Assembly: GCA_037447655.1 (NCBI GenBank)
Contig: JBBHKE010001973.1
Location: forward strand, 773,954 to 837,953
DNA: 64,000 nucleotides
Source of the DNA: Zygnema cylindricum
Taxonomy: Eukaryota; Streptophyta; Zygnematophyceae; Zygnematales; Zygnemataceae
Direction: 5' to 3'
Part shown: positions 35,634 to 61,600 of the stretch, piece after piece
How positions within the stretch are numbered: position 1 is the first letter of the stretch
Layout: each line of letters starts with the position of its first letter
Program-made: the position numbers and the translations under genes
The notes under the pieces: generated by a model
What the model was told of the DNA's origin: nothing
The model's input: only the letters and a program-made list of their open reading frames with translations
Database searches by the model: none

Positions 35634-36090
35634 CATAGTTCAAAAGTAGGCGTTTTTTGGTAGGCCTTTGGTAGGCCGCCTTTAGCGTAAGTTTTGTTAC
35701 GGGCTTTCCATGTGATCTTCTTAGATCGATACTTTCATCAGCGACCGTCCGATCGTCCGAATCTGACGATAGTCCTATCGTAAGTTGTGTTATGGGCTTT
35801 TCATGTGATCTTCTTAGATCGTTACTTTCATCAACGCCCGTCAAATCGTCCAAATCTGACGGTTTAAATAAAAAGTCGCTCAAAACTCACGGAAAAATCT
35901 TTTTTTGTCGATTTTTTTTTTCAAATTTAGACATGACGTTTAATTCTCTATCGATCCATGTGCAACTCAACCCTGTTACTATTTTATTTCATTTTGCGGC
36001 CAATACAATATGGGTCTTAAAGCCATATTGTATGTTTTGCATACAATAGGCATATTGTATGGGCGTACGGTCACCTACTTTTGAACTATG
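35634..36090. mobile_element. Family D MITE copy 3
   Basis: Inverted ends CATAGTTCAAAAGTAGG and CCTACTTTTGAACTATG. A segment of about 100 bp containing GTGATCTTCTTAGATCG is tandemly duplicated inside (around 35,690-35,770 and 35,775-35,865). I could not find a matching 8-bp flank, unlike copy 1. A fragment of family B (36,091-36,140) lies next to it. Confidence 0.75.
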
Positions 36091-36245
36091 CTGCGATCGC
36101 TTGTTGAAAGTGGATACTTTTTTGGTTTTTAACGTGTACGTGTTGGATTGGCACGTGAAGCCGGTCCAATACAGGGTAGAATATGGAAATATCCATACTC
36201 GAGCCGCCCGTTATAAATGGGTACGGACCCGCCAGTCTCAACATC

Positions 36246-36314
36246 GAGCTGGTGGCACATTGGTAGTGCGTTCGCAGCTAAAGTGAGAGGTCCCATGTTC
36301 GAACCGCCGGCTCA
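36246..36314 (+). ncRNA. tRNA-like module, TRIM LTR 1 (damaged T-arm)
   Basis: 69 nt: three bases of the 3' T-stem are missing, so the T-stem cannot close. Acceptor (GAGCTGG with CCGGCTC) and D-stem (GCAC with GTGC) are intact. TTTT follows at once. Confidence 0.7.
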
Positions 36315-36528
36315 ATTTTCCCAAGTGTGGGACATGCCGAATCCCGGATTTCAAGGAAATGTAACATGGTATCAGAGCCAGCGGGATTGCGGATGGTTTG
36401 ACCGGCTTTCTCGTGAGGGGGGGTGTTGGATTGGAACATGTAGCCGGTCCAATACTGGGTAGAATATGGGAATATCCATACTCGAGCAGCCCGTTATAAA
36501 TGGGTACGGACTCGCCAGTCTCAACATC

Positions 36529-36600
36529 GAGCTGGTGGCACAGTGGTAGTGCGTTCGCAGCTGAAGTGAAAGGTCCCTGGTTCGAACCCTGGCCGGCTCA
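36529..36600 (+). ncRNA. tRNA-like module, TRIM LTR 2
   Basis: 72 nt with acceptor, D and anticodon stems intact and one T-stem mismatch. The B-box-like GGTTCGAACCC is perfect. TTTT follows two bases after the discriminator A. Confidence 0.8.
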
Positions 36601-36814
36601 ATTTTCCCAAGTGTGGGACATGCCGAATCCCGGATTTCAATGAAATCTAACATGGTATCAGAGACAGCGGGATTGCGGATGGTTTGACCGGCTTTCCCGT
36701 GAGGGGGGGTGTTGGATTGGCACGTGAGGCCGGTCCAATACAGGGTAGAATATGGAAATATCCATACTCGAGCAGCCCGTTATAAATGGGTATGGACGCG
36801 CCAGTCTCAACATC

Positions 36815-36886
36815 AAGCTGGTGGCACAGTGGTAGTGCGTTCGCAGCTGAAGTGTAAAGTCCCAGGTTCGAACCCTAGCCGGCTCA
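36815..36886 (+). ncRNA. tRNA-like module, TRIM LTR 3
   Basis: 72 nt. The first base is A instead of G, and single mismatches occur in the anticodon and T stems; A- and B-box-like elements remain. Followed by AATTTT. Confidence 0.75.
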
Positions 36887-37102
36887 ATTTTCCCAAGTGT
36901 GGGACATGCCGAATCCCAGATTTCAAGGAAATCAAACATGGTATCAGAGCCAGCGGGATTGCGGATGGTTCGACCGGCTTTCCCGTGATGGGGGGTGTTG
37001 GATTGGCACGTGAAGTCCGTCCAATACAGGGTAGAATATGGAAATATCCATACTCGAGCCGCCCGTGATAAATGGGTACGGACCCGCGCCAGTCTCAACA
37101 TC

Positions 37103-37174
37103 GAGCTGGTGGCACAATGGTAGTGCGTTCGCAACTGAAGTGAAAGGTCCCAGGTTCGAACCCTGGCCGGCTCA
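37103..37174 (+). ncRNA. tRNA-like module, TRIM LTR 4
   Basis: 72 nt with all four stems closed: acceptor GAGCTGG/CCGGCTC, D GCAC/GTGC, anticodon TTCGC/GTGAA, T CCAGG/CCTGG. Anticodon loop AACTGAA lacks the usual U33. TTTT follows two bases after the discriminator. Confidence 0.85.
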
Positions 37175-37388
37175 ATTTTCCCAAGTGTGGGACATGCCGA
37201 ATCCCGGATTTCAAAGAAATCTAACATGGTATCAGAGCCAGCGGGATTGCGGATGGCTTGACCGGCTTTCCCGTGAGTGGGGGTGTTAGATTGGCACGTG
37301 AAGTCGGTCCAATACAGGGTAGAATATGGAAATATCCATACTCGAGCCAACCGTAATAAATGGGTACGGACCCGCCAGTCTCAACATC

Positions 37389-37460
37389 GAGCTGGTGGCA
37401 CAAGTGTAGTGCGTTCGCAGCTGAAGTGAAAAGTCCCAGGTTCGAAACCTAGCCGGCTCA
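37389..37460 (+). ncRNA. tRNA-like module, TRIM LTR 5
   Basis: 72 nt. The B-box-like element is altered (GGTTCGAAACC) and the D-loop carries a rearranged AAGTGTA, so Pol III activity is less likely than in other copies. Confidence 0.7.
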
Positions 37461-37674
37461 ATTTTCCCAAGTGTGGGACATGCCGAATCCCGGATTTCAA
37501 GGAAATCTAACATGGTATCAGAGCCAGCGGGATTGCGGATGGTTTGACCGGCTTTCCCGTGAGGGGGGGTGTTGGATTGGCACGTGAAGCCAGTCCAATA
37601 CATGGTAGAGTATGGAAATATCCATACTCGAGCCGCCCGTAATAAATGGGTACGGACCCGCCCGTCTCAACTTC

Positions 37675-37746
37675 GAGCTGGTGGCACAGTGGTAGTGCGT
37701 TCGCAGCTGAAGTGAAAGGTCCCAGGTTCGAACCCTGGCCGGTTCA
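37675..37746 (+). ncRNA. tRNA-like module, TRIM LTR 6
   Basis: 72 nt; close to consensus, with one G-U pair in the acceptor (3' side CCGGTTC). Loop AGCTGAA. TTTT follows. Confidence 0.82.
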
Positions 37747-37784
37747 ATTTTCCCAAGTGTGGGACATGCCGAATCCCGGATTTC

Positions 37785-38873
37785 TGAAATTCTATGGGCT
37801 CCATTGCCCACAGAATCGAAGATCCAAAAGAAGCTAATCTAGATAGTGCCGACTCCAAGTTGATATAAACCCGAATGAATGATCCCTTGATAATCAAAAC
37901 TCCAATACAACTTCACCCTGTGAAGATAAGACCTTGTGTGTGCTCAGTTCCACCACAGAATGCAAAGCTTGAATATGTGTTTTGGATAGTATTCCCCACT
38001 TTGACTTTCCCACTGAATAAGTGCCACCCTGACACGCAAAAACCTTTGACCGACTACACCCTTGTGTAGCCTAGACTCCCCTGAGTCCGCAGCAAAAAGA
38101 ATCACTGAATTTGCTCACCCGAGCAGTAAGTTATGACTGGTCAAAGATGACCTTTATAGTTACAAGCTCTCTTAGAGAGAGGTACCTAAATATCACTAAG
38201 TCTTGGTCTGCCTACTCACGACTACCTACTACTAAACCCTTGTCCAATAGGAACACTATATAGTACAAGAAGGTACAATGGGCGATGTACTTATTGTACG
38301 ACCATTGTACGACAAGGTCTACAAGGTGACACTTGTCAAATCGGAAGCCATGGTTCCTCCTCCCATCTTCTCCGGTATCAAATAATGTGGCGCCACGTGG
38401 CACCGCGTGACGCTATCCCTGTATGCCGCCAAAAGCTCACTTCGCGTGGCGGCTATAATGCCGGCCGCCCGATCAAAACATATTTTACACGGTTCAGATT
38501 CGCGTAAATGCAGGAATTGCTCCTTTTGGTTGGTCTGCTGTTAATCAGCTGTTGCGTTAATGTTTATGTATTTATGAAACCCGTCACGTGTATCGTTTCG
38601 ATAGTAGCCTAATGGATAAGGCGTTGGTCTATTTAGTAGCCTATAGACCCCGGTTCAAATCCGTCGGCGTTAGTATTTTGCTAAAACTAGTAAAATACTT
38701 TCTAAATCATTTTGCCTCCTTCTAAATGATGCGGCAACCATGGCGTGCCTTTGGTCCTCTCTTTCTCTCTCTTTACATTCTAACTAAATTATAGAAGTGA
38801 ACTATTAGTCAACTCTTTTTAACACTCTATTTATTTTTCCAATACAGACCTAGAAAATACATAAATTTCAACA
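37785..38873 (-). mobile_element. Copia-type solo LTR inserted in the TRIM array
   Basis: 1,089 bp with minus-strand start TGTTGAAATT and minus-strand end ...AATTTCA, flanked by the 5-bp duplication ATTTC (37,780-37,784 and 38,874-38,878). Similar layout to the LTRs at 44,107, 44,291 and 51,687, including CCACAGAAT near the 3' end and an antisense tRNA-like module 201 bp from the 5' end. A single LTR with a TSD indicates LTR-LTR recombination after insertion. Confidence 0.88.
38598..38672 (+). ncRNA. tRNA-like Pol III module, antisense in solo LTR
   Basis: D-arm/A-box-like TAGCCTAATGGATAAGGCG, then a 7-bp hairpin GGTCTAT/ATAGACC in the anticodon-arm position, then B-box-like GGTTCAAATCC and TTTT at 38,676-38,679. 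The acceptor stem does not close, so this is a tRNA-derived promoter/RNA module, not a tRNA gene. Confidence 0.7.
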
Positions 38874-39054
38874 ATTTCAAGAAAATCTAACATGGTATCA
38901 GAGCCAGCGGGATTGCGAATGGTTTGACCAGCTTTCCCGTGAGGGGGGGTGTTAGATTGGTATGTGGAGCCGGTCCAATACAGGGTAGAATATGGAAATA
39001 TCCATACTCGAGCCGCCCGTAATAAATGGGTACGGACCCGCCAGTCTCAACATC

Positions 39055-39126
39055 GAGCTGGTGGCATAGTGGTAGTGCGTTCGCAGCTGAAGTGAAAGGT
39101 CCCAGCTTCGAACCCTGGCCGGCTCA
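39055..39126 (+). ncRNA. tRNA-like module, TRIM LTR 7
   Basis: 72 nt; the base before the T-loop is C, giving one T-stem mismatch and an altered B box. Other stems are intact. Confidence 0.75.
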
Positions 39127-39339
39127 ATTTTCCCAAGTGTGGGATATGCCGAATCCCGGATTTCAAGGAAATCTAACATGGTATCAGAGCCAGCGGGATT
39201 GCGGATGGTTCGACCGGCTTTCCCGTGAGGGGGGGTGTTGGATTAGACGTGAAGTCGGTCCAATACAGGGTAGAATATGGAAATATCCATACTCGAGCCG
39301 CCCGTAATAAATGGGTACGGACCCGCTAGTCTCAACATC

Positions 39340-39411
39340 GAGCTGGTGGCACAGTGATAGTGCGTTCGCAGCTGAAGTGAAAGGTCCCAGGTTCGAACCC
39401 TGGCCGGCTCA
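39340..39411 (+). ncRNA. tRNA-like module, TRIM LTR 8
   Basis: 72 nt with all stems closed; the A-box-like GTGGTAG reads GTGATAG. B-box-like GGTTCGAACCC is perfect. AATTTT follows. Confidence 0.82.
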
Positions 39412-39471
39412 ATTTTCCCAAGTGTGGGACATGCCGAATCCCGGATTTCAAGGAAATCTAACAACAAGAAA

Positions 39472-44290: not shown

Positions 44291-45331
44291 TGCAATTCTG
44301 TGTCCTCCATTGGACCACAGAATACAGGAAGCCTCTAGATAGTATTTAACTAACCCACTTTAAGCCACAACCACTGCTGCCCAAGAAGGCAAACTGACAA
44401 TTTGACTGCACCCCTGTGTAGCTTGGACTCCCCTGAGTCGGTAGAAAAAAGAATCACTGAAAAAGGCCAACCAGGCGATAAATTATAGGGTGGCAAAGAT
44501 GCCAATTTATACAAACTCTCAGAGAGAGGACTATCTACCTAAATTTTCCTAAGTCCTAGTTTTCCTACTTCCCTCTCACAGCTCCTATCTACTGCCTGTA
44601 CGAACCAATCAAAAAACTGTATAGTACAAGAAAGTACTACTGCCGATGTACTTTCTGTACGGCCTCTGTACGACAAGGCCATTAAGTGGACGCGTGTCCA
44701 CTTTCCACTCGTCCGTACGTTCCTCGGAATTCCCGCGACCGAATGATGTCTTCCCACGTGGCGCCAGGTCATGCCACGTCACTAAATGCCAAAATGACCA
44801 TTCCGGGATTTCGGCGATAATGTGCGCCGTTAGATTTGACGTGAAATTCAATCTCGGCCGTAATAAATACTTGCGCGATATTTGTTTCGCTTTCGAAACA
44901 AAATGCGCGATATCCATTTCAAACAAGTACAGTACTTCGTATTTCGTAGAACTGTATCTATGTGTGGCGTTTGAGGGTTTCAGTTAAATGAATCTAGTAC
45001 ATTACAATAGTTTAAATACTTATGAAACCCTATATCTCCTAACGGACTTCTACGACAGACTGGTTAGAGCTAACGGCTACGCCGCGCTCTACCGGTCGGG
45101 GGTTCGAGTCCTTCCGGACTCAACCTTTTGTTGAGAGTGGCTTAAGCCACTCTTTAGTCCTTCCTATGGAGTTGAGGCAGCCATGGCTCCATTGCTCTCT
45201 CTCTCTCTCCTTCAGTGACTACAACAAGTATGGGGGCGAGAGAGAGAGAAGAGATAGAGGCAAGCTGCCTACTTTTTCTTTTCTAATAAATTTAGACCTA
45301 GAAAATATATTAAAAACTACTTATTTCAACA
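44291..45331 (-). mobile_element. Copia element 3' LTR
   Basis: 1,041 bp, same length as the 5' LTR at 49,675-50,715 and differing from it at only about ten positions by eye, so the insertion is young. Minus-strand ends TGTTGAAATAAG and CAGAATTGCA. The 5-bp target duplication AGTTA lies at 44,286-44,290 and 50,716-50,720. Contains an antisense tRNA-like module (45,052-45,122). Confidence 0.95.
45052..45122 (+). ncRNA. tRNA-like Pol III module, antisense in copia 3' LTR
   Basis: A-box-like ACTGGTTAGAGC, hairpin AGAGC/GCTCT and CGGC/GCCG, B-box-like GGTTCGAGTCC, T-stem closing with wobble pairs, and TTTT at 45,126-45,129. The acceptor 5' strand is not complementary, so a functional tRNA is unlikely. 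A hairpin (GAGTGGCTTAAGCCACTC) follows. Confidence 0.7.
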
Positions 45332-45346
45332 CTCCCCTTATTTTCT
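45332..45346 (-). other. Copia polypurine tract
   Basis: Minus strand AGAAAATAAGGGGAG directly before the 3' LTR: priming site for plus-strand DNA synthesis. It overlaps the pol stop codon by two bases. Confidence 0.8.
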
Positions 45347-48300
45347 AGTCAAATTTTAATTTTTCTTTTAACCCGCATTTCTCCCGACAATATTTCAATT
45401 TAGGAGAGGGCACATGTTTGGTCATCATGTCAGCCACCATTTCTTCATCAGGTCTATACACAAGATTTAAAATTTTATTTTCAACTTTTTCTCTTACGAA
45501 GCTTAATCTTATGTCCATATGTTTTGCTTTGAAATGATGTTTTGGATTGGCTGCGATTGCGATTGCAGCTTGATTATCGCAAAAGATTTCATGCACTCCC
45601 TCTTTCATATATCCCAGTTCTTGCAATAATGACTTCACCCACATTAGTTCTTTCACAGCAGAACAAGACGCCATATACTCAGCCTCCATAGTAGACTGAG
45701 CAACCACCTTTTGTTGCTTACTGCTCCAACAGCAAGCACCTTCCCCAACATACAACACATACCCAGAAGTGCATCGTCTCATAGGTGCGTCCCCATAAAC
45801 GGCATCACTCCAAGTAGTGATGTCAGTGTGCTCCCCTCCCAAATGCAACCATAACTCTCTAGTTCCCACCAGATATCTCATGACTCTCTTGGCTGCCTCC
45901 CAATCCCTCTTCCTAGGATCATTAAGACTCCTACTGAGTACACCAACAGCCGCCGCTATGTCCGGCCTGGTACAATTCATAAAATAGATTAAGCTTCCTA
46001 CGACCTGTCTATAAGGGATAGACTTCATGAACTCTCTCTCCTCTGGACTCATCTGATCGTCTAAGATCATCACTCCTCCTTCTACACTCCCATCACTTCC
46101 TTTTTTCAAGTCCATGGGAGTGGTACAACTGTTAGCATTTTCCATCTGGAATTTCTCAAGCATATTACCTATTGCTTCTTTCTGAGTAAGTCTGATAATC
46201 TTCTTCCCCCTATCTCTCTCCATTTGGATCCCCAAAATATATTTTGCTTCCCCTAAATCCTTCATATCAAATCTGCCCCTAAGATCTTTCTTTAGCCTAT
46301 TGATATTCTCTAAAGACTTACTTAACACAAGCAGATCATCCACATAAATTGCAATAAAAATGACACCATTCTCATCTTCAAACATATAGATAGAATGGTC
46401 AGAGCTGATCCGGATGTATCCCAGATCGGTGAGAAACTCATCTAGTTTCTTATTCCACTGTCGGGGAGCCTGTTTCAGTCCATATAAGGACTTTATGAGC
46501 CTGCACACTTTGCTCTCTTCTCCTTCTTCCACAAACCCCTCGGGTTGCCTCATAAAAATTTCTTCCTCTAACTCACCATTAAGAAAAGCAGTCTTAATAT
46601 CCATCTGGTGAATTTCCATGTCTTCCGCTGCGGCCAGACTGAGGAGAATCCTTACCGATGGCAACCGAACAACTGGAGCAAAGGTCTCCTCATAGTCAAT
46701 CCCCTCTTTTTGGGTGAACCCCTTCGCTACCAATCGAGCCTTATACCTCTCAATTGTATTATCTGGGTTCAGTTTTAGTTTAAATACCCATTTACATCCA
46801 ATAGGTTTTCTGTCTGGAGGGCAATCCGCTAGTTCCCAAGTATTTGCTTCCATGATAGAAGCCATCTCATCATTTATGGCTCTAATCCATCTTTCTTTCT
46901 CTGGACTATTCACTGCCTCCAAGTAAGACTGAGGCTCATCTGGGTGAGATAGCTTAGTTACCTTATGGGCAGCTTGTTTTTCCTGTATCCTTTTGCTGCT
47001 CCTCCTTCCTCCTTCAAACTCCGAAGCTGGAATGGATGGAAGTCTTGGATTTCTTCTCACTGTCTCATCGGCTCCCCTGTCCATAAAAACCGTATCTTGT
47101 CCCGCTTCTTCCATCTCCTCGAAGTCCATAGGAGTATGTGAGGTTTCCGGTGAGTCTCCTGTATCTTCGATCTCCCCTGAATCTGTAATCACAGTTTCAC
47201 TCATGTCTTTTTCGGGAACGACTGAGTTCTCCTCACTTTCGGACTCAAATCTGATCCTTATCTTCTTTGTATATTTGAAGGGGTCAAATGACTTCCCTTC
47301 ATCCATGACAACTAAGTGTTTGACCAGAATGATATCTTTCTTTGCTAAGTCATAGACTTTATATCCCTTAACATCCTCATCATATCCCACAAAGTATCCA
47401 GGTTTTCCCTTAGCATCTAGTTTCCAGTTTTTCCTATCCGTGTCAAGACTGTAAACTTGGCTACCAAATACTTTAAGGTGTGAGATATCTGGTTTCCTTC
47501 CAACCCATCTCTCATAAGGTGTCACTCCCTTTACAGCTGAGGTAAGGACTCTATTTTTAATATAGTTGGCACAGTTCATTGCCTCTGCCCAAAATCTCTT
47601 TCCTATTTTCTTGTCTGCCAACATACTGCATGCACTATCTCCCAGTGTTCTATTTAACCTCTCAGCTACCCCATTTTGTTCTGGGTTATATGGTACAGTT
47701 TTCTGGTGCTGCACTCCCTCATCTCTCAAATATTCCTCAAACTCGTTAGAGGTATATTCCCCCCCATTATCACTCCTTATCCTCTTAATGGGGGTTTCAT
47801 GCAACTTCTCACTCCAAGCTTTATATTCTTTGAAGTAAGTTGATGCTTCAGACTTTGTTTTTAGAAAGTAGACTCTAGAGTATCTAGACCAGTCATCAGT
47901 TATTGTCATCATAAACCTCTTTCCTCCAACCGAAGGTACTTTTGTAGGCCCCCAAATATCTGTGTGGACTAAATCTAATACTTTCTCACCTCTATATGTG
48001 GCGGCTTTGGGAAAGGGAAGTCTGTGAACCTTACCTTGAGCACAACCACTACAATCATCCATCATTTCATTATCCCCAAACTCAATGCCATCTACTACCC
48101 CAAGTTTTTTCATTTCCCTTAACCTATCAAAATGTACATGCCCCAACCGCTTATGCCAAATCATCACCTTAGGAACACCAACATAGTAAGCATTCTTCTT
48201 TTCATTACTCAAGTTAAGCCTAAACATTCCTTGGCTACCCTTATCTGCTGTGAAGTAAACTTCATCCCCATACTTAGCTGTAAAGACTACCTTTCTGGTG

Positions 48301-48935
48301 AAGGTATCAAGCTCTTTATCATCTAACACAGACGTAGAGACAAGATTTTTACTCAGCTGAGGAATGTAAAGTACATCTGAGAATGTAAGTATAGAAGTCT
48401 TACCCTCCACTAAGACTTTCAGATCTACTGATCCCAATAGATCTGTTGTAACCACTCTCCCATCCCCATACTCTATCTCTACAGTAGGAATCTTTCTTAA
48501 CTTAGTGAAGAGTTCTTTATCACGACACATATGCATGGATGCACCTGAGTCGATGATCCATCCTTCCTGTGGAGCTTCCCGGATGGCTCCAAGGGCACAC
48601 TTCTGCCTCCGAGGAATCTCCTTCTCCTCCAAACTCTCGTCAAGAAGAAGCTCCCCATCCTCCTCAGGGGACTCATCCTCGGTTTCTCCTGACACCTTTG
48701 TAACCACAAGTGCCTTTTTCTTCCTTCCGGAAAAACCCCCTCCACGGTTCTCTTGGAGCCTTAGCTCTGATAGCTTGACACAATCTGCAATAAAGTGTCC
48801 CGGCTTTTTGCAATAATGACAAAGACCCTTTGGGGGCCTCTGTCCCCCTGAATGATCTCTTTCCCCTCTATAAGGTTTCTTCGGGTCCTTCCCCCATCGG
48901 TCCCCTCCTACTGCTAGAGCTTGAATGCTCTTTCC
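45345..48935 (-). CDS. Copia pol: protease, integrase, reverse transcriptase, RNase H
   Basis: Continuous frame downstream of an in-frame TGA; the first ATG of the open part is at 48,707 (1,120 codons). Upstream of that ATG the frame includes the gag zinc knuckle CHYCKKPGHFIADC near 48,800. Numbered from the ATG: protease DSGA at about 53-56; integrase HKRLGH/CSGC zinc site near 185-235, then catalytic D (DIWGP), D (RSDNGGEY) and E of the DD35E core; RT with ARLVAKGFTQ and YVDDLL near 790; RNase H with WSDAVYGD, EAEYMA and DNQAAI towards the end. Domain order protease-integrase-RT-RNase H defines Ty1/copia. All catalytic motifs look intact. Same frame as gag, so the element was one polyprotein of about 1,449 codons, now broken by one nonsense codon. 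Confidence 0.95.
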   Translation of the reverse strand, partial: GKSIQALAVGGDRWGKDPKKPYRGERDHSGGQRPPKGLCHYCKKPGHFIADCVKLSELRLQENRGGGFSGRKKKALVVTKVSGETEDESPEEDGELLLDESLEEKEIPRRQKCALGAIREAPQEGWIIDSGASMHMCRDKELFTKLRKIPTVEIEYGDGRVVTTDLLGSVDLKVLVEGKTSILTFSDVLYIPQLSKNLVSTSVLDDKELDTFTRKVVFTAKYGDEVYFTADKGSQGMFRLNLSNEKKNAYYVGVPKVMIWHKRLGHVHFDRLREMKKLGVVDGIEFGDNEMMDDCSGCAQGKVHRLPFPKAATYRGEKVLDLVHTDIWGPTKVPSVGGKRFMMTITDDWSRYSRVYFLKTKSEASTYFKEYKAWSEKLHETPIKRIRSDNGGEYTSNEFEEYLRDEGVQHQKTVPYNPEQNGVAERLNRTLGDSACSMLADKKIGKRFWAEAMNCANYIKNRVLTSAVKGVTPYERWVGRKPDISHLKVFGSQVYSLDTDRKNWKLDAKGKPGYFVGYDEDVKGYKVYDLAKKDIILVKHLVVMDEGKSFDPFKYTKKIRIRFESESEENSVVPEKDMSETVITDSGEIEDTGDSPETSHTPMDFEEMEEAGQDTVFMDRGADETVRRNPRLPSIPASEFEGGRRSSKRIQEKQAAHKVTKLSHPDEPQSYLEAVNSPEKERWIRAINDEMASIMEANTWELADCPPDRKPIGCKWVFKLKLNPDNTIERYKARLVAKGFTQKEGIDYEETFAPVVRLPSVRILLSLAAAEDMEIHQMDIKTAFLNGELEEEIFMRQPEGFVEEGEESKVCRLIKSLYGLKQAPRQWNKKLDEFLTDLGYIRISSDHSIYMFEDENGVIFIAIYVDDLLVLSKSLENINRLKKDLRGRFDMKDLGEAKYILGIQMERDRGKKIIRLTQKEAIGNMLEKFQMENANSCTTPMDLKKGSDGSVEGGVMILDDQMSPEEREFMKSIPYRQVVGSLIYFMNCTRPDIAAAVGVLSRSLNDPRKRDWEAAKRVMRYLVGTRELWLHLGGEHTDITTWSDAVYGDAPMRRCTSGYVLYVGEGACCWSSKQQKVVAQSTMEAEYMASCSAVKELMWVKSLLQELGYMKEGVHEIFCDNQAAIAIAANPKHHFKAKHMDIRLSFVREKVENKILNLVYRPDEEMVADMMTKHVPSPKLKYCREKCGLKEKLKFD

Positions 48936-49694
48936 TCATCTCCTAATCTCCATTGTGTTTTCCTGCACAAGTATCATCCTGACTACTGTGTTCCATTTCC
49001 ATGAACTATCAGGCATTCCCTGTACTCGGTACACTAAGTTTTCGAACTCATTTGGTAATTTCACGATAAGGGTGTTAACTTTCATTTTCATTGTACCTAT
49101 CCACCCGGCACTTTCCATTTCCGTATAGAAACAAGAAAGATCATTACAGTAATCTAACATCTTTCCTCCTTTGTAAGTGTAACTCAGTAGCTTTTGCTCA
49201 GCCAACTGGAGCTCCTGAATAATTCCAGCTCTATAAATTTCCACCAAACTCACCCACAACTCCTCGGCCTTGTAAATGTGAAGATGAGGAGTGGCCAAAC
49301 CTTGAGTGAGGTGCCTCAGAATGAAGTTCTTGGCAGCCATGTTTACATCCTCCCACATTTGAGTATCGTTCTCCACGGTCTTTACGGTCGCCGCTCCCGA
49401 TACTGTGGCAATAGGAGTAAGGGGTGTCTCCTTCCCTTTCCCCTTTTCGGACACATTGCTGTCCCCATCATCTGCCTCCTCCGCCGAGGCAGCCGTTGTT
49501 GCAGGAAACCTTACTCCCCCAAATCCTGGTGGAGTTCCCGAAGGTGGACGTTTCACTTGTCCACTAACGATACCCCAGTATCGTTTTTCACACAAAGCTC
49601 CCATCATCATGGCTTCCCAATAGATGAACCCAGATCCATTGAAGGTGGGCACCCTAGAGGGTGGGCCCATAACCTGCAATTCTGTGTCCTCCAT
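48936..49694 (-). CDS. Copia gag (ends at a premature TGA)
   Basis: 252 codons; a gag of the UBN2/copia type forming the virus-like particle that packages element RNA. The ATG (49,694) lies inside the end of the 5' LTR, so the first residues MEDTELQ come from LTR sequence and VMGP from the primer-binding site. Landmarks are FIYWEAMMMGAL near residue 30 and WGIVSGQ. The frame stops at TGA after MEIRR, where the decayed copy at 1-3,502 has an Arg codon and reads on. The zinc knuckle and pol follow in the same frame. The stop is most simply a nonsense mutation; stop-codon readthrough is a less likely alternative. Confidence 0.88.
   Translation of the reverse strand: MEDTELQVMGPPSRVPTFNGSGFIYWEAMMMGALCEKRYWGIVSGQVKRPPSGTPPGFGGVRFPATTAASAEEADDGDSNVSEKGKGKETPLTPIATVSGAATVKTVENDTQMWEDVNMAAKNFILRHLTQGLATPHLHIYKAEELWVSLVEIYRAGIIQELQLAEQKLLSYTYKGGKMLDYCNDLSCFYTEMESAGWIGTMKMKVNTLIVKLPNEFENLVYRVQGMPDSSWKWNTVVRMILVQENTMEIRR
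49661..49674 (-). other. Primer-binding site (half-tRNA-iMet type)
   Basis: The minus strand reads GGTTATGGGCCCAC directly after the 5' LTR. It is complementary to the anticodon stem-loop of eukaryotic initiator tRNA-Met (CTGGGCCCATAACC region), not to its 3' end. Drosophila copia and yeast Ty5 are known to prime from such internal half-tRNA sites. Confidence 0.8.
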
Positions 49695-50715
49695 TGGACC
49701 ACAGAATACAGGAAGCCTCTAGATAGTATTTAACTAACCCACTTTAAGCCACAACCACTGCTGCCCAAGAAGGCAAACTGACAATTTGACTGCTCCCCTG
49801 TGTAGCCTGGACTCCCCTGAGTCCGTAAAAAAAATAATCACTGAAAAAGGCCAACCAGGCGATAAATTATAGGGTGGCAAAGATGCCAATTTATACAAAC
49901 TCTCAGAGAGAGGACTATCTACCTAAATTTTCCTAAGTCCTAGTTTTCCTACTTCCCTCTCACAGCTCCTATCTACTGCCTGTACGAACCAATCAAAAAA
50001 CTGTATAGTACAAGAAAGTACTACTGCCGATGTACTTTCTGTACGGCCTCTGTACGACAAGGCCATTAAGTGGACGCGTGTCCACTTTCCACTCGTCCGT
50101 ACGTTCCTCGGAATTCCCGCGACCGAATGATGTCTTCCCACGTGGCGCCAGGTCATGCCACGTCACTAAATGCCAAAATGACCATTCCGGGATTTCGGCG
50201 ATAATGTGCGCCGTTAGATTTGACGTGAAATTCAATCTCGGCCGTAATAAATACTTGCGCGATATTTGTTTCGCTTTCGAAACAAAATGTGCGATATCCA
50301 TTTCAAGCAAGTACAGTACTTCGTATTTCGTAGAACTGTATCTATGTGTGGCGTTTGAGGGTTTCAGTTAAATGAATCTAGTACATTACAATAGTTTAAA
50401 TACTAATGAAACCCTATATCTCCTAACGGACTTCTACGACAGACTGGTTAGAGCTAACGGCTACGCCGCGCTCTACCGGTCGGGGGTTCGAGTCCTTCCG
50501 GACTCAACCTTTTGTTGAGAGTGGCTTAAGCCACTCTTTAGTCCTTCCTATGGAGTTGAGGCAGCCATGGCTCCATTGCTCTCTCTCTCTCTCCTTCAGT
50601 GACTACAACAAGTATGGGGGCGAGAGAGAGAGAAGAGATAGAGGCAGGCTGCCTACTTTTTCTTTTCTAATAAATTTAGACCTAGAAAATATATTAAAAA
50701 CTACTTATTTCAACA
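49675..50715 (-). mobile_element. Copia element 5' LTR
   Basis: 1,041 bp; near-identical to 44,291-45,331, beginning (minus strand) TGTTGAAATAAG at 50,715 and ending ...GAATTGCA next to the primer site. It should hold the promoter for the minus-strand element RNA. Carries the antisense tRNA-like module at 50,436-50,506. Confidence 0.95.
50436..50506 (+). ncRNA. tRNA-like Pol III module, antisense in copia 5' LTR
   Basis: Same sequence as the 3' LTR copy (45,052-45,122), with TTTT at 50,510-50,513. It lies 209 bp inside the LTR 5' end, on the strand opposite gag-pol. Confidence 0.7.
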
Positions 50716-55665: not shown

Positions 55666-58600
55666 CACGTGGCATGCAGGCGTTGGACAGTCTGGGCGTG
55701 CCGGAGGGCGGGCGGCTGGGCCTGGTGCTGCCCAACGGACCGGAACTGGCCGTCTGCCTCATCGCCTGCGCCGCCTCCATCACGTGCGCCCCAGTCAACG
55801 CCCAGGTAACCCTGTCCCTCCCTTTCCCCTTGTCAATTTCCTCCCCCCTCTTCCCTCCCACCTTGCAATTCTCTCCCTTCCCCCCCCTGCCCACTCTCTC
55901 TCACCCCTCTCTCCCTCCCTCTCTCCCCTCCCCAGAACACGGTAGAGGAGATCGTCGCGGAGCTCCGCAGTGCCGGCGCCAGCTGCGCCATCGTGGCCGG
56001 AGGTGACACGTGTCCCGCCAGCGACCTCAAGAGCGGCCTCCGTACGGCCCTAGAAGCGGCCGGCCTCAAAGCCCTAGAACTGGGGCCCTGCCCCTTTGTT
56101 TCCGGCCTTTTTACTTTGAGGAATCCCTCGGAGCCCCAGAGGTCTCCGGTGACTCTAAGGGGAAGTCCGCCGGCTTCTCTGGGAAGGGGATCGGTGGTTC
56201 CCATGGGGGAGGAGGGAAGGGAGAGGAGAGGTTTAGGGAGGAAGGATGTGGCGATGGTGTTGCATACGTCAGGGACTAGTGGGAAGAAGAAGGTGGTGAC
56301 ATATAGTGTGGAGACTTTGGTGATTGGAGCGGTTTTGGTTATTAGTTCTTGGGAATTGAGAATGGAGGATGTGGGGATTAATATGATGCCTTTGTTCCAT
56401 GTCGGTGGGATTGTACGGAATCTGTTGGCGCCTATTTTGTCCGGAGGTGCGATCGTACCGTGCCGAAATTTCGACGCATGTCAGTTTTGGGACGTATTGG
56501 AGGGCTCGGGAGTGACGTGGTACTACGCCTCTCCCACCATGCATCACATGATTTTGACCGAGGGAGAAGGGCGCAAAGGGGTATTGCACAAAATTCGACT
56601 TATTGGAAACGCCGCGGGAGGATTACTTCCATCTCTTGCGGAGGAATTGAAGGAGAGATTCAATGATGCGACGGTTTTGCCTTCTTATGGAATGACGGAA
56701 TGTATGCCCATAGCTTCTCCTCCGGCGAATTACAAGTTGCAGAAACCGGGAACTTCCGGATTGGTCGTCGGTCCGCAGTTACAAATTTGCGATACGGAGG
56801 GTAATCCTTTGGCCGCAGGGATTGTGGGAACTATTGCGGTGAGAGGACCTCCGGTGTTTTCCGGGTATGAGGGAGATAAAGAGGCAACCGAGTCGTCTTT
56901 TTTTGAGGGAGGTTGGTTTAATACGGGGGACATGGGGTATTTGGATAAGGACGGATATCTTTACATTACGGGTCGGTCGAAGGAAGTGATTAATAGAGGA
57001 GGAGAGATTATTTCTCCGTTTGAAATTGAACAGGCGATTATTTCTCACCCGGCGATTAACGACACTATCGCATTTTCCGCTCCTCATGATGTTTTACAAG
57101 TAAGTTTACTGATTTGTGACTCCACCTTTTTCCGTTTATTATATGCTAGATAAACTTTCTCCTCTCTGTTATTGCGACTCCACCTTTTTTTTTTTTATTA
57201 CATGCCAAAAATTCCCCTCTCTTTCTCTTTCAGCTGCCCAATTTAACCACTCATCGGCTAAACTTGCTCTCTGTCTCTATCCTCCTCTCTCGTCCACAGG
57301 AAGTCGTGGGTGTGGTTTTAGTGACTAAGCCCGGATTCCCACGTGTCGACCTCCAAGAGCTCCACCGCTTTGTGAACGACCGCCTCCATCCCGCCAAGTG
57401 GCCGGTTGTGGCAGTTTACATGGACGCCATTCCAACCGGGGCCGCCAACAAAGTCTTAAGAGTCAAACTGGCGGAGCGGCTTTCCATGGCCAACATCGAC
57501 GACACTCAGCCGCAGACTTCCCGACTTTTCGAAGCCATTTGTCCCCCGAAAGGTGCCCCGTTGACTGTGAAAATACCAATGTCGCCGATTTACCTGAAAT
57601 CAGAGATAAAGCTCGTAGATAAGGCTCTTATGACCGCTGGGGGAGAAGGCCGATTGATCGATGCTGGAATCGCGTATTTACGGAGTGCGACAGTGGCGTA
57701 TTTGGTTCCTTCTCCAGACAAAGATTGGAGCGATCAAGATAGCAAAGCGCTTTTAGAAATGGTTCGAGGAGAATTGAATGCTTATGTCCGACCCCGAAAT
57801 GTGATTATTTCGACAGGATGTAAAAGTGGACTTTTGACTTTACCTCGTCTTCCCGACGGTACTGTCGATGTGGAGTCTCTTTCAGCTTCGAAGGAAGAGT
57901 CGAAGGATACTTTGACGAGTCCGGCGGAATTGGCCGTGGCTTCAGCTTGGAGTCAAATTTTGAGTTTGCCTTTAAGAGATATTGGAAGGGATGCAGATTT
58001 TTTCGAGTTGGGAGGTTCGTCTTTAGCTGCCGGAAAAATGGTAGCTCTTTTGAGGAAGCAGTTGGGTATATCTATTCAAGCCGGAGTAGTTTTTCAACAT
58101 AGGACAGTGGGAGAGTTGGGAGATATGGTTACTAAATTGTTGGATGCAGATTCTGGGAAGGGAGGGATGAGGAGTAGGGGAAAGTCGGGAGATGTCGAGT
58201 CAGGTTTTGAAAATTTGTTTGACGATGACGAGGCAGAAGTGGCTGCTTGTCGACCAAAAAGTTCGACTTCTTTTATAGCTTTGCTTGTTCAGATTATCCC
58301 CCTTGCGATTATTTATCCAGTAACTCGCGTTTCCCTCTGGTTTTTATACATTTTTTATCTTTCTCTTTTACGAAAAAATTGGGCGGTGGCATCCAGAATA
58401 ACAAAGGCGGGAGTGACAAAGTGGGAATTTTCCCCTTTGTTGGGTATTCCGGAATTAATTATCGCAATTGCGATGATTAAAATCACTGCAGATATAGTTC
58501 AACCCCTAATAGGAATCACAGTGAAATGGGTTCTAATTGGAAGATACAAAGCCGGTCGATATCCTCTTTGGGGACAGTATTACCTTCGCTGGTTTTTCGT

Positions 58601-61600
58601 TCGACAGGTTTTACGAATTTGCCATATGGGTATGTTCACTTGGTTTCCGGGAGGAAGAACTTGGTATTATCGTCTTCTCGGAGCGAAAATTGGAAAAAAT
58701 GTCCTTTTACACGACCGAGTGAAGTTGGGAGAATACGATCTTGTGACTATTGGAGACGACACTTGGGTCGACAATTCTATGCTTCGTCCGTTCTGTCTTG
58801 ACCAAGGTTCTATGTTGCTGAGACCTATAAACATCGGAAAACGTTGTGTTATTTGTCAAAAAACTACTATTTCACCGGGAACTACAATGCCAGATGAAAC
58901 TTGTCTCCCTCCTTGTTCTTCCTCTTATGAAATGGTCGATGCCGATCCAAAATACCGAGATTACTGTAGAGTCGGATTCCCGGCTCCCCATTGGGCGATG
59001 CAGATTTTTATCGGATACCCAATTATACTTATGGGAGCTATTACATACATTTCTCCCTGGATCTCCTGTCTGTTTTTATACGTGAGTTTACCTCAGTTTC
59101 TACATGCCATCTCACAAGAGGATCTCATCAAATGGTTTGGAACGCCTGAAAGATTACCTCTTTTTCTGATGTTGAAAGTGGTGAGAGATTGTATCAGCCC
59201 CATCTGGTACCTTTGGTTTGTAGTTTCTGTGAAGAGAACTGTTATCGGAAGATTTAAGGCAGGTCCTCGAGATCGAACTCAATGGAACCTCATGAGATTT
59301 TGGCTCATGAAGAAACTTATGCCCGGAAGAGATTTGGCTGGAGTGGCAAAACTCGTGGGACCCAATTTCGGTGTTATCAGTTTTATTTATCGTCTTCTGG
59401 GAGCCAAGGTAAGGAGCCTTCTTTTTACCTCCCAGTAAACACTATTTTTGGACGTTTGTAAATCAGTCAGAATCGTAATTGTGATGTTGGTTGTTTTTGT
59501 TTCTACGTCGGAGGATTATAAGAGTGTCTTTGTTTGTCTTTTTGTTGTGATTTAGCTGTTGCTGCTGTTCTAAGAACTGGAGCAGTCAAAAGTTCTTTCA
59601 GAAAAGAAAATGTTGGATTGTCAGATATTTTTTTTCCTCTCTTGCTGCTTTGTGTGCTGTTTCAATAGGAAATTTTGTTTTTAATAGTATGAACTATTTC
59701 ATTATATTGTGCAAGAATGAGCGGAGGAGTCACAAAAGATGGTTGCGGTAGAACAATGCTGGCCCTTCTCTAGTTATGTACTGTCAAATAGATTTTGTTA
59801 CACAAAAAACACAGGTCACTGATTTATATTGAATAAACTCCACTTGTGCAGGTTGGGAGACACGTATACTGGCCGGGTTCTGGAGTGTATATCGAAGAAT
59901 TTGATTTGTTGGAAATTGGAGACGATGTCGTTTTTGGTTCCCGTTCGGAAGTTGCTTGTTGCGATGGGAAAAGTTCAGCTCCCGTGAAATTGGAGTCAGG
60001 ATGTATGGTTGCCGACCGTTGTGTGATTCTTCCCGGAGTCACAGTCAGTCAAAATGCAACACTTGGTTCCGGAACATTAGCAGGTAAAAATTTCTCCCCT
60101 CTTTTCCAAATTTTAAACGTATTCTGAGAATGAAAAGAGGGAGAGGAAAAGGAAAGAGCAGCAGTGTGGATTCCTTAACAGTTTGAGGATATTTTCTTAC
60201 GTTTTTTTTGTTTTCTTGTTTATGTTTTATTATGAGACAGCTAGAGGCATGGTGTTTCCTCCTGGATCGACGTGGATCGGTTCTTCCAAAGGAAATGCGA
60301 CTCTTTGGGAAGAAGGCAAAGGAGTTGATGAAAAAGCCTCTACCTCTACTCCGTATGCCAGAGCTATGTTTGAGGGCAAAGCCAAAAATTATATCCCATG
60401 GCCCATGTGGGTACATGTAATGTTCTCTGCATTCATGTCCGTTGTTGTTTCCGCTTACCACGGTATTCCCATTCTTATGGTTTTGGCTCTAACAGTCAAA
60501 ATCGCCGATCCATGGCTTTCAGTTGGACAACATCAAGATGAATGTGAGTCTTTTAGCCATTCCCAGACTTCATAGAACTGAGAAATTCGCTGAGTTGTAT
60601 ATAATTATTTGTTAATGTGTTAGTTATATTGTTTTTTTGATTTTTTTTTTTGAACTTGTTCGCGGCTTTGGTTCAGAAGCAAGCTGGTTATCCTGAGAGG
60701 TCGATGATGGCTGTGAAGCAAATGGACTGGATTCTGTTATTTCTATGTGTGTTGTCCTGTTACTAACTATTTTTTTCTCTTTTTTGTCGCATGCAGCCCA
60801 TAGGTTGATCACAATATATGGTATAATGCTGGGAATTGGAATATTCTCAGTTGTCAGTGTTACTCTGGGAGCGCTGCTTATCATCATTATATGTGAGAAC
60901 TTTGCCTGTTTTTAACTTACAAAGAAAAGCCTTTCTTTTTGCTGCGTACTTTTTTTTATTTCATATTTTGGCCTTTACGACAAGTGGGGAACCTGACATT
61001 GAATGGGAAATTTGACTTATGCAGCGAAATGGATTGTGATTGGACGACGAAGAGAGGGACGTTACGCATGGGACCAGTCTTCCTACAATCAGGTGAGAGA
61101 GAGGCACAGCTTCTTCTGTATGACTTTTGACATATTCCCATTTCCTTTTTCTTCGTTTCGCATTTTCTTTTGTGCGGGGAAAGCCCGACTGTACCGTCCA
61201 AGCGACATATTCTTTCTTGGGAGACTTATACTATGTGCGGCGGTGCTTGTTGGGAAACAGAGATGGCAAATCATGCGGCGAATCGAAGGACTGCGATCCA
61301 CCGGAGTGGGTGGAAAGGGGCCTCTGGATTTCCTCCTAGGCAGCGCCTACCTCGTGTGGTACTTCCGAGCTCTGGGATGTCATATCGGAAAGAATGTGTG
61401 CCTTTACCCTAATTCCGGAGACCCCATGATGACCGAACCAGAATTAGTGACCATAGAAGACGAGGCAGTCGTGGACGATGCCAGTCTGGTCGCCCATATC
61501 AACAGCAGAGGAGAGGTACGCTCGCTCGCTTCCTTCTGCCGCAGCTTTTCCTTTGTTCTTTGTTTTTTCGTTTCTCGCTGTTTCTCCAAACATGAAATGA

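Follow-up and report, generated by a model that had tools for sequence, protein, structure and literature searches.

The window analysed here is the whole 64,000-nucleotide (nt) stretch of contig JBBHKE010001973.1 from Zygnema cylindricum (Zygnematophyceae). At 36141-39463 it contains a tandem array of eight long terminal repeats (LTRs) of ~229 bp and seven interiors of 57 bp, with a repeat unit of ~286 bp. All eight LTR starts and eight ends could be located (TGTTRGATT ... AAATCTAACA; 229 bp in most copies), and every interior opens with a primer site, TGGTATCAGAGCCAG, and closes with a polypurine tract, GTGAGGGGGGG. An earlier note on this sequence had described just this arrangement, LTRs flanking interiors made up only of these two sites, as a terminal-repeat retrotransposon in miniature (TRIM), and the boundaries bear it out. 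That note also placed a tRNA-like module of about 72 nt in every LTR, a length that holds for seven of them, the module of LTR 1 measuring 69 nt. The parts of the array are as follows.

36141-36366, plus strand: LTR 1 (226 bp), with TATAAA at 36212-36217, the leader CAACATC at 36239-36245 and the 69-nt module at 36246-36314
36367-36423, plus strand: interior 1 (57 bp), primer site TGGTATCAGAGCCAG at its start and polypurine tract GTGAGGGGGGG at its end
36424-36652, plus strand: LTR 2, module at 36529-36600
36653-36709, plus strand: interior 2, primer site with one change (TGGTATCAGAGACAG)
36710-36938, plus strand: LTR 3, module at 36815-36886
36939-36995, plus strand: interior 3
36996-37226, plus strand: LTR 4, module at 37103-37174, best fold a full cloverleaf
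37227-37283, plus strand: interior 4
37284-37512, plus strand: LTR 5, module at 37389-37460
37513-37569, plus strand: interior 5
37570-37784, plus strand: LTR 6, first part, module at 37675-37746, best fold a full cloverleaf
37785-38873, minus strand: insert in LTR 6 that does not belong to the TRIM, 1,089 bp, with TG..CA ends, related to Copia LTRs
38874-38892, plus strand: rest of LTR 6 beyond the insert, carrying the second ATTTC
38893-38949, plus strand: interior 6
38950-39178, plus strand: LTR 7, module at 39055-39126
39179-39235, plus strand: interior 7
39236-39463, plus strand: LTR 8, module at 39340-39411, best fold a full cloverleaf

A 230-amino-acid minus-strand open reading frame (ORF) that crosses the array runs through the repeats, and we take it to be mechanical.

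ARAGORN called seven of the eight window modules as tRNA and labelled them Gln(CTG) by anticodon, and three (at 36815, 37103 and 37675; LTR 8 is not among them) reached the gathering score of the Rfam tRNA model RF00005. At copies of the LTR elsewhere in the genome the Rfam model gave 14 matches in 8 stretches, spanning model positions 1-71 and scoring 53.6-56.9 bits (cut-off 29). When the eight window stretches were folded, that of LTR 1 beginning 2 nt too far upstream, the best fold was a full cloverleaf for LTRs 4, 6 and 8 only, the same three in which all four stems had been seen to close; folding energy alone was not distinctive (z-scores of -0.2 to -1.6 for the eight modules). Of 107 near-full genomic copies of the LTR, which together with the window array we call family A, 105 have the run TTTT after the module, and the family A anticodon loop, AGCTGAA, has G at position 33. 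The module therefore does not decode, as U33 is missing. The first description of the sequence was accurate. The closest host tRNAs were Cys (48/72 identical) and Trp, and the Gln genes were far from the module, although the anticodon CTG would be that of Gln; this comparison used an incomplete set of 59 predictions from 38 loci. A 25-mer of the module had no match in IMG/VR, and a GC version of its D stem had none in the genome.

Dispersed copies and a second family

We searched the 352.8-Mb genome (2,689 contigs) with a single LTR and obtained at least 92 matches on 40 contigs (40 of 938 candidates scored). The first 34 nt of the module alone occur exactly 255 times in the genome, and the reversed control not once. 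For the analysis of copies we used 39 places outside the window's contig together with the window itself, giving 40 loci. An exact 5-bp target duplication borders the element at 25 of these; among the other 15, six have a truncated end and nine, including the window array, do not. Five arrays of at least three LTRs lie outside the window, four of them (3, 3, 4 and 5 LTRs) between matching target duplications and the fifth (4 LTRs, truncated) without. The family A element is 515 bp long, and in its 28 complete two-LTR copies the paired LTRs are 96.1-100% identical (median 99.1%), nine pairs being identical, which indicates recent activity. The LTRs of the window array are mutually 92.1-96.5% identical, so this array is older than the recent two-LTR copies. 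The 3' end of the host initiator methionine (iMet) tRNA, GGATCGAAACCTGGCTCTGATA, was found twice in the genome and, with CCA added, its end is complementary to the primer site; it may resemble the iMet end of green plants. The array therefore belongs to a mobile TRIM and not to a tRNA gene array, and the proposal of a TRIM with a tRNA module is upheld by the dispersed copies, the 5-bp target duplications and the primer site complementary to a host tRNA.

Two groups of loci depart from this pattern. At L104-L107 in our numbering of loci (contig C144, 51029-52287), an array of shortened 243-bp units missing most of the interior meets an oppositely oriented copy. At L108-L110, the base that directly precedes the module in A-type LTRs is G rather than C (CTACATG or CAACATG), and these copies perhaps represent an older subfamily.

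A pattern search revealed a second family, B, with LTRs of 221-222 bp (TGTTGACGTACGTG ... AATCTTAACA), a 66-bp interior with a primer site and polypurine tract of the same kind as in A, and a total length of 508-511 bp. The interiors of both families, 57 and 66 bp, are too short to code. Two of three family B elements have a 5-bp target duplication, their LTR pairs are 100, 100 and 97.8% identical, and a DNA search with family B gave at least 77 matches (40 of 893 candidates scored). One family B copy, L117 (C1607), has several tandem duplications of part of U5.

Compared with the family A copy L053, the modules of six B copies are identical at 69, 69, 65, 69, 64 and 68 of 72 positions. The flanks have diverged further: for the B copy L116, 50 of 70 aligned positions match A within 80 nt before the module, which is not above chance overall (shuffles: mean 42, standard deviation 4.7, maximum 54), and 36 of 49 match after it (shuffles: mean 27, standard deviation 3.4, maximum 33), so that the aligned flanks are ~72% identical against 69/72 for the module. 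All three module differences in L116 are in loops, which leaves the 42 stem bases identical. The part of the module that lies outside the internal promoter motifs, the A and B boxes, differs at 1 of 50 bases and the aligned flanks at 33 of 119 positions (Fisher p 4e-5), in a comparison of single sequences rather than populations. Judged from these sequences, conservation of the module between the families extends beyond the two boxes, and the identical stems amount to conservation of the fold, not covariation. Families A and B also have in common a TATA-like stretch ~30 nt before the module, CATC immediately upstream and a short CCC..GGG hairpin downstream.

The module as a promoter and the start of the RNA

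The A box of the module is TGGCACAGTGG and its B box is GGTTCGAACCC in family A and GGTTCAAATCC in family B, all of which fit the usual consensus for RNA polymerase III (Pol III). Short A- and B-box motifs are also given in the text of Kojima 2024 (PMC10886601). Of 30 sampled host tRNA genes, 11 have the CATC leader in the 8 nt that precede them, compared with 0.5 of 30 on average, and 2 at most, for windows placed further upstream. One organelle-like gene had been dropped from 31 to give these 30, an unbalanced sample in which Lys and Gln genes predominate. For flowering plants, the text of PMC11700998 names CAA or TATA upstream and a run of T downstream as signals of tRNA genes. Among the sampled host genes CAA was present within 10 nt in 6/31, a TATA-like motif in 11/31 and T4 within 30 nt in 11/31; with T4 this infrequent, the lack of TTTT in family B says little against Pol III. 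In the family A element counted, TTTT occurs nowhere except after each module; by our own rough estimate about one TTTT per unit would be expected, so we make no claim from its lack elsewhere. The A box, B box, host-like leader and TTTT make use of the module by Pol III plausible, and RNase P may trim the resulting RNA.

TRIMs with tRNA-derived LTR sequences, reported from fungi, animals and one plant, have been named Helenus (Kojima 2024, PMC10886601, from its text). We think it likely that the element described here is a Helenus-type TRIM whose LTR holds a complete tRNA-gene unit and whose module serves as a Pol III promoter forming R; it would be a well-preserved tRNA-bearing LTR element, probably transcribed by the cell's tRNA-making machinery. 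This interpretation draws on the target duplications, the identical LTR pairs, the iMet primer match, the full-length match to the tRNA model and TTTT, and also on the retention of the module in B while its flanks diverge, the host-like CATC leader and copies without U3 that start at the module. The LTR unit consists of leader, A box, tRNA body and B box, plus TTTT in family A, in a non-coding element that would depend in trans on proteins of another LTR element for its movement. Transcription would begin in the 5' LTR, at the module or immediately ahead of it; part of the RNA would read through the minimal TTTT there, and its end would lie at the TTTT that follows the module in the 3' LTR. 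Reverse transcription would be primed by iMet tRNA, and the tandem arrays may arise by recombination between LTRs. The anatomy, the dispersal with target duplications, the match of the primer site, the homology to tRNA and the module shared by two families are established here, and the use of Pol III, the identity of R with the module, the read-through, the helper element and the origin of the arrays are inferred.

Copies lacking U3 bear on where this RNA might start. Two of them, L100 (= L120, contig C301) and L114 (C1194), consist of module and U5 only, 124 nt; the latter replaces 110 bp of a Copia integrase gene, has no target duplication and has C at position -1, where the Copia element of the window has G. 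A third, L119 (C683, also contained in L086), reads module-U5-interior-U3-module-U5 and has its 5' end at the first base of the module, G1. All three 5' ends lie within 1 nt of that base (G1 or -1), that of L088 (C569) lies around -6, and L113 has its primer site fused to the first base of the module over a shared GAGC. The starts of seven 5'-truncated A copies were at LTR positions 39 (a composite), 85, 99, 105, 106, 123 and 169, the module starting at 106, and three of the seven fall within 99-106 (p 0.001 if starts were uniform). These copies came from two different searches, one of them ranked by module, and L114, found by a pattern blind to starts before -7, is not among the seven. The U3-less copies look like captured products of reverse transcription, namely minus-strand strong-stop DNA and minus strands that ran to the end of the RNA template; if they are, R begins at the module. 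With a handful of loci and other truncation points in family A, the 5' truncation at the module, and hence a start of R there, is suggestive only.

G1 also coincides with the site at which RNase P would cut a pre-tRNA. That the module is R, with the 5' end of the RNA made by an RNase P cut at its first base, strikes us as a rather doubtful proposal. Under it, processing as a pre-tRNA would let the retrotransposon define where its own R begins, and strong-stop and template-switch products would survive as fossils in the genome in the form of L100, L114, L119, L088 (with an untrimmed start near -6) and the L113 join.

Several results weigh against a module that acts as a Pol III promoter and as R. 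The TATA-like box at about -30 is equally usable by RNA polymerase II (Pol II), and TTTT is also present within the 5' LTR, where it should stop Pol III early. The three family B elements have no sense-strand TTTT at all. Nine truncated B matches start at query positions 11, 11, 16, 16, 57, 81, 116, 119 and 130, none of them at the module (start at 90); this count omits four short pieces of the C1607 array, repeated U5 stretches like those of L117.

The stems show no compensatory changes within family A and nothing beyond chance. Among 38 distinct gap-free modules, taken from the 107 near-full copies of 121, we counted 18 pair-keeping, 27 pair-breaking and no double changes, a kept fraction of 0.40 against 0.365 expected, and divergence in the module (1.35%) is not below that in the remainder of the LTR (1.09%). 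The covariation that the earlier note had suggested looking for did not appear, which by that note's own first criterion counts against selection on the fold. Such a result is expected if copies decay neutrally after insertion, and young copies say little.

Selection might nevertheless act on the tRNA fold itself, with the module RNA being processed or, as the earlier note had offered as an option, mimicking a tRNA (as a substrate of RNase P or RNase Z, or as a packaging or stability signal). We regard this as a tentative possibility. The 42 unchanged stem bases with three differences confined to loops, the single change in 50 bases outside the boxes as against 33/119 in the flanks and the three U3-less copies that start within 1 nt of the pre-tRNA RNase P site speak in its favour; yet compensatory changes are lacking, three of three changes in loops are not significant alone, the module is only 64-68/72 identical in three of the six B copies, indicating decay or variation, and without U33 there is no decoding. 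The same conserved stems would, moreover, be seen if the families exchanged their R regions in the course of reverse transcription.

This exchange is also part of an alternative that we consider unlikely, in which the TATA-like box directs transcription by Pol II and the tRNA module is a passenger that was captured. Its likeness in the two families would then reflect either the need for R to match between LTRs or an exchange of R between A and B RNAs packaged together. According to the text of Kojima 2024 (PMC10886601), canonical TRIMs are transcribed by Pol II, and the TATA-like stretch in both families, the unexceptional divergence of the module within A and the uncompensated stems agree with such a passenger. 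It accounts less well for an A box, a B box and a host-type leader that are intact in both families, and for a module that alone stands out between diverged flanks on both sides. The remaining alternative, a plain array of tRNA genes or pseudogenes, recalls the regular spacing of the tRNA-like genes called by ARAGORN and is already refuted by the LTR ends, primer site, polypurine tract and dispersed two-LTR copies with target duplications, which also dispose of the earlier note's caveat that TRIM copies might be missing elsewhere.

Relation to known elements

As in Helenus, the element is a TRIM of less than 1 kb with tRNA-derived sequence in its LTRs and a primer site and polypurine tract in its interior, has 5-bp target duplications (as fungal and plant Helenus do), solo LTRs and tandem arrays, and may combine an anticodon and a body that disagree, the last point being judged here on an incomplete sample of host tRNAs (Kojima 2024, PMC10886601, from its text). 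The plant Helenus, from Selaginella, has 120-bp LTRs and an 85-bp interior, compared with 229/57 bp in family A and 221-222/66 bp in family B, and here, in a further difference from Helenus, the entire tRNA body is conserved from one family to the other. The assignment to Helenus rests on these structural features. The text of Kojima 2024 reports tandem arrays of one Helenus family, considers working tRNAs unlikely and proposes the name TRIMp3 for TRIMs with a Pol III promoter, Pol III transcription of Helenus being a proposal there; a word search of its main text returned neither RNase P, nor processed, nor transcription start. In the library searched, it was the only literature found on Helenus tRNA retrotransposons and, judged by title, on TRIMp3 in this sense.

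The element shares with Cassandra a small-RNA gene unit with an internal Pol III promoter in the LTR, a methionine primer site and tandem arrays (PMC10853983, PMC7215508), and differs in that the unit is derived from tRNA rather than 5S rRNA; the Rfam scan of the window found no 5S rRNA and listed only tRNA. The earlier note's phrase, the tRNA counterpart of Cassandra, is apt as a description, but the novelty it implied falls away since Helenus was named in 2024. A tRNA-type internal promoter is also found in tRNA-derived short interspersed elements (SINEs), according to the text of Kojima 2024 (PMC10886601). Unlike these, the present element has LTRs, a primer site, a polypurine tract and a fixed 5-bp target duplication, which argue for insertion by integrase rather than by target-primed reverse transcription. 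SMART and other Pol II TRIMs are similar in having a very small interior with little beyond the two priming sites and differ in that, in the texts consulted, no tRNA-derived module is reported for them.

Beyond what is described for Helenus, the analysis adds family B, the CATC leader held in common with host tRNA genes, the U3-less copies at the module start and unusually complete tRNA modules. Two young families in one genome share a tRNA module despite differing LTRs, and integrated module-U5 pieces may mark the start of the RNA; together these make a working Pol III promoter inside the LTR, the claim behind Helenus, directly testable. They also raise the question of whether tRNA-processing enzymes shape a retrotransposon's genome. 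For annotation they carry a warning, as hundreds of such modules could be called as tRNA genes.

Neighbouring sequences

The insert in LTR 6 (37785-38873) is bordered by the target duplication ATTTC (37780-37784 and 38874-38878). A tRNA-Arg-like look of 38598-38672 within it was rejected, Rfam giving no match there at E up to 1. An LTR-like sequence of the same Copia-related type lies at 1619-2810 of L088, at nearly the same site, the end of U5; the two inserts are opposite in orientation, and a target preference is possible.

A nearly complete Copia element lies at 44291-50715 of the window (minus strand), with 1,041-bp LTRs that are 99.1% identical, a pol ORF of 1,120 codons that encodes integrase and reverse transcriptase domains and a gag ORF that begins within the LTR. 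The stretch that follows its LTR reads as complementary to the anticodon arm of iMet tRNA, which would mean priming by a half-tRNA. As this stretch reads as the complement of the arm and not of the 3' end, the element is not an obvious candidate for the helper of the TRIM, and no other candidate emerged.

At 55993-59438 (plus strand), two adjoining ORFs contain an AMP-binding domain, a phosphopantetheine site and hexapeptide repeats; they resemble a Pls-type enzyme of a eukaryote, similar to nonribosomal peptide synthetases (NRPS-like), and their best database relative is 57% identical. Elsewhere in the genome, no match to rbcL was found, and G000:C1887:125822-125995 is a mitochondrial cox3 fragment that contains a stop codon and is probably a nuclear copy. 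A tandem pair of 86-bp repeats that are 88% alike lies at 35683-35861 of the window, shortly before the start of the array.

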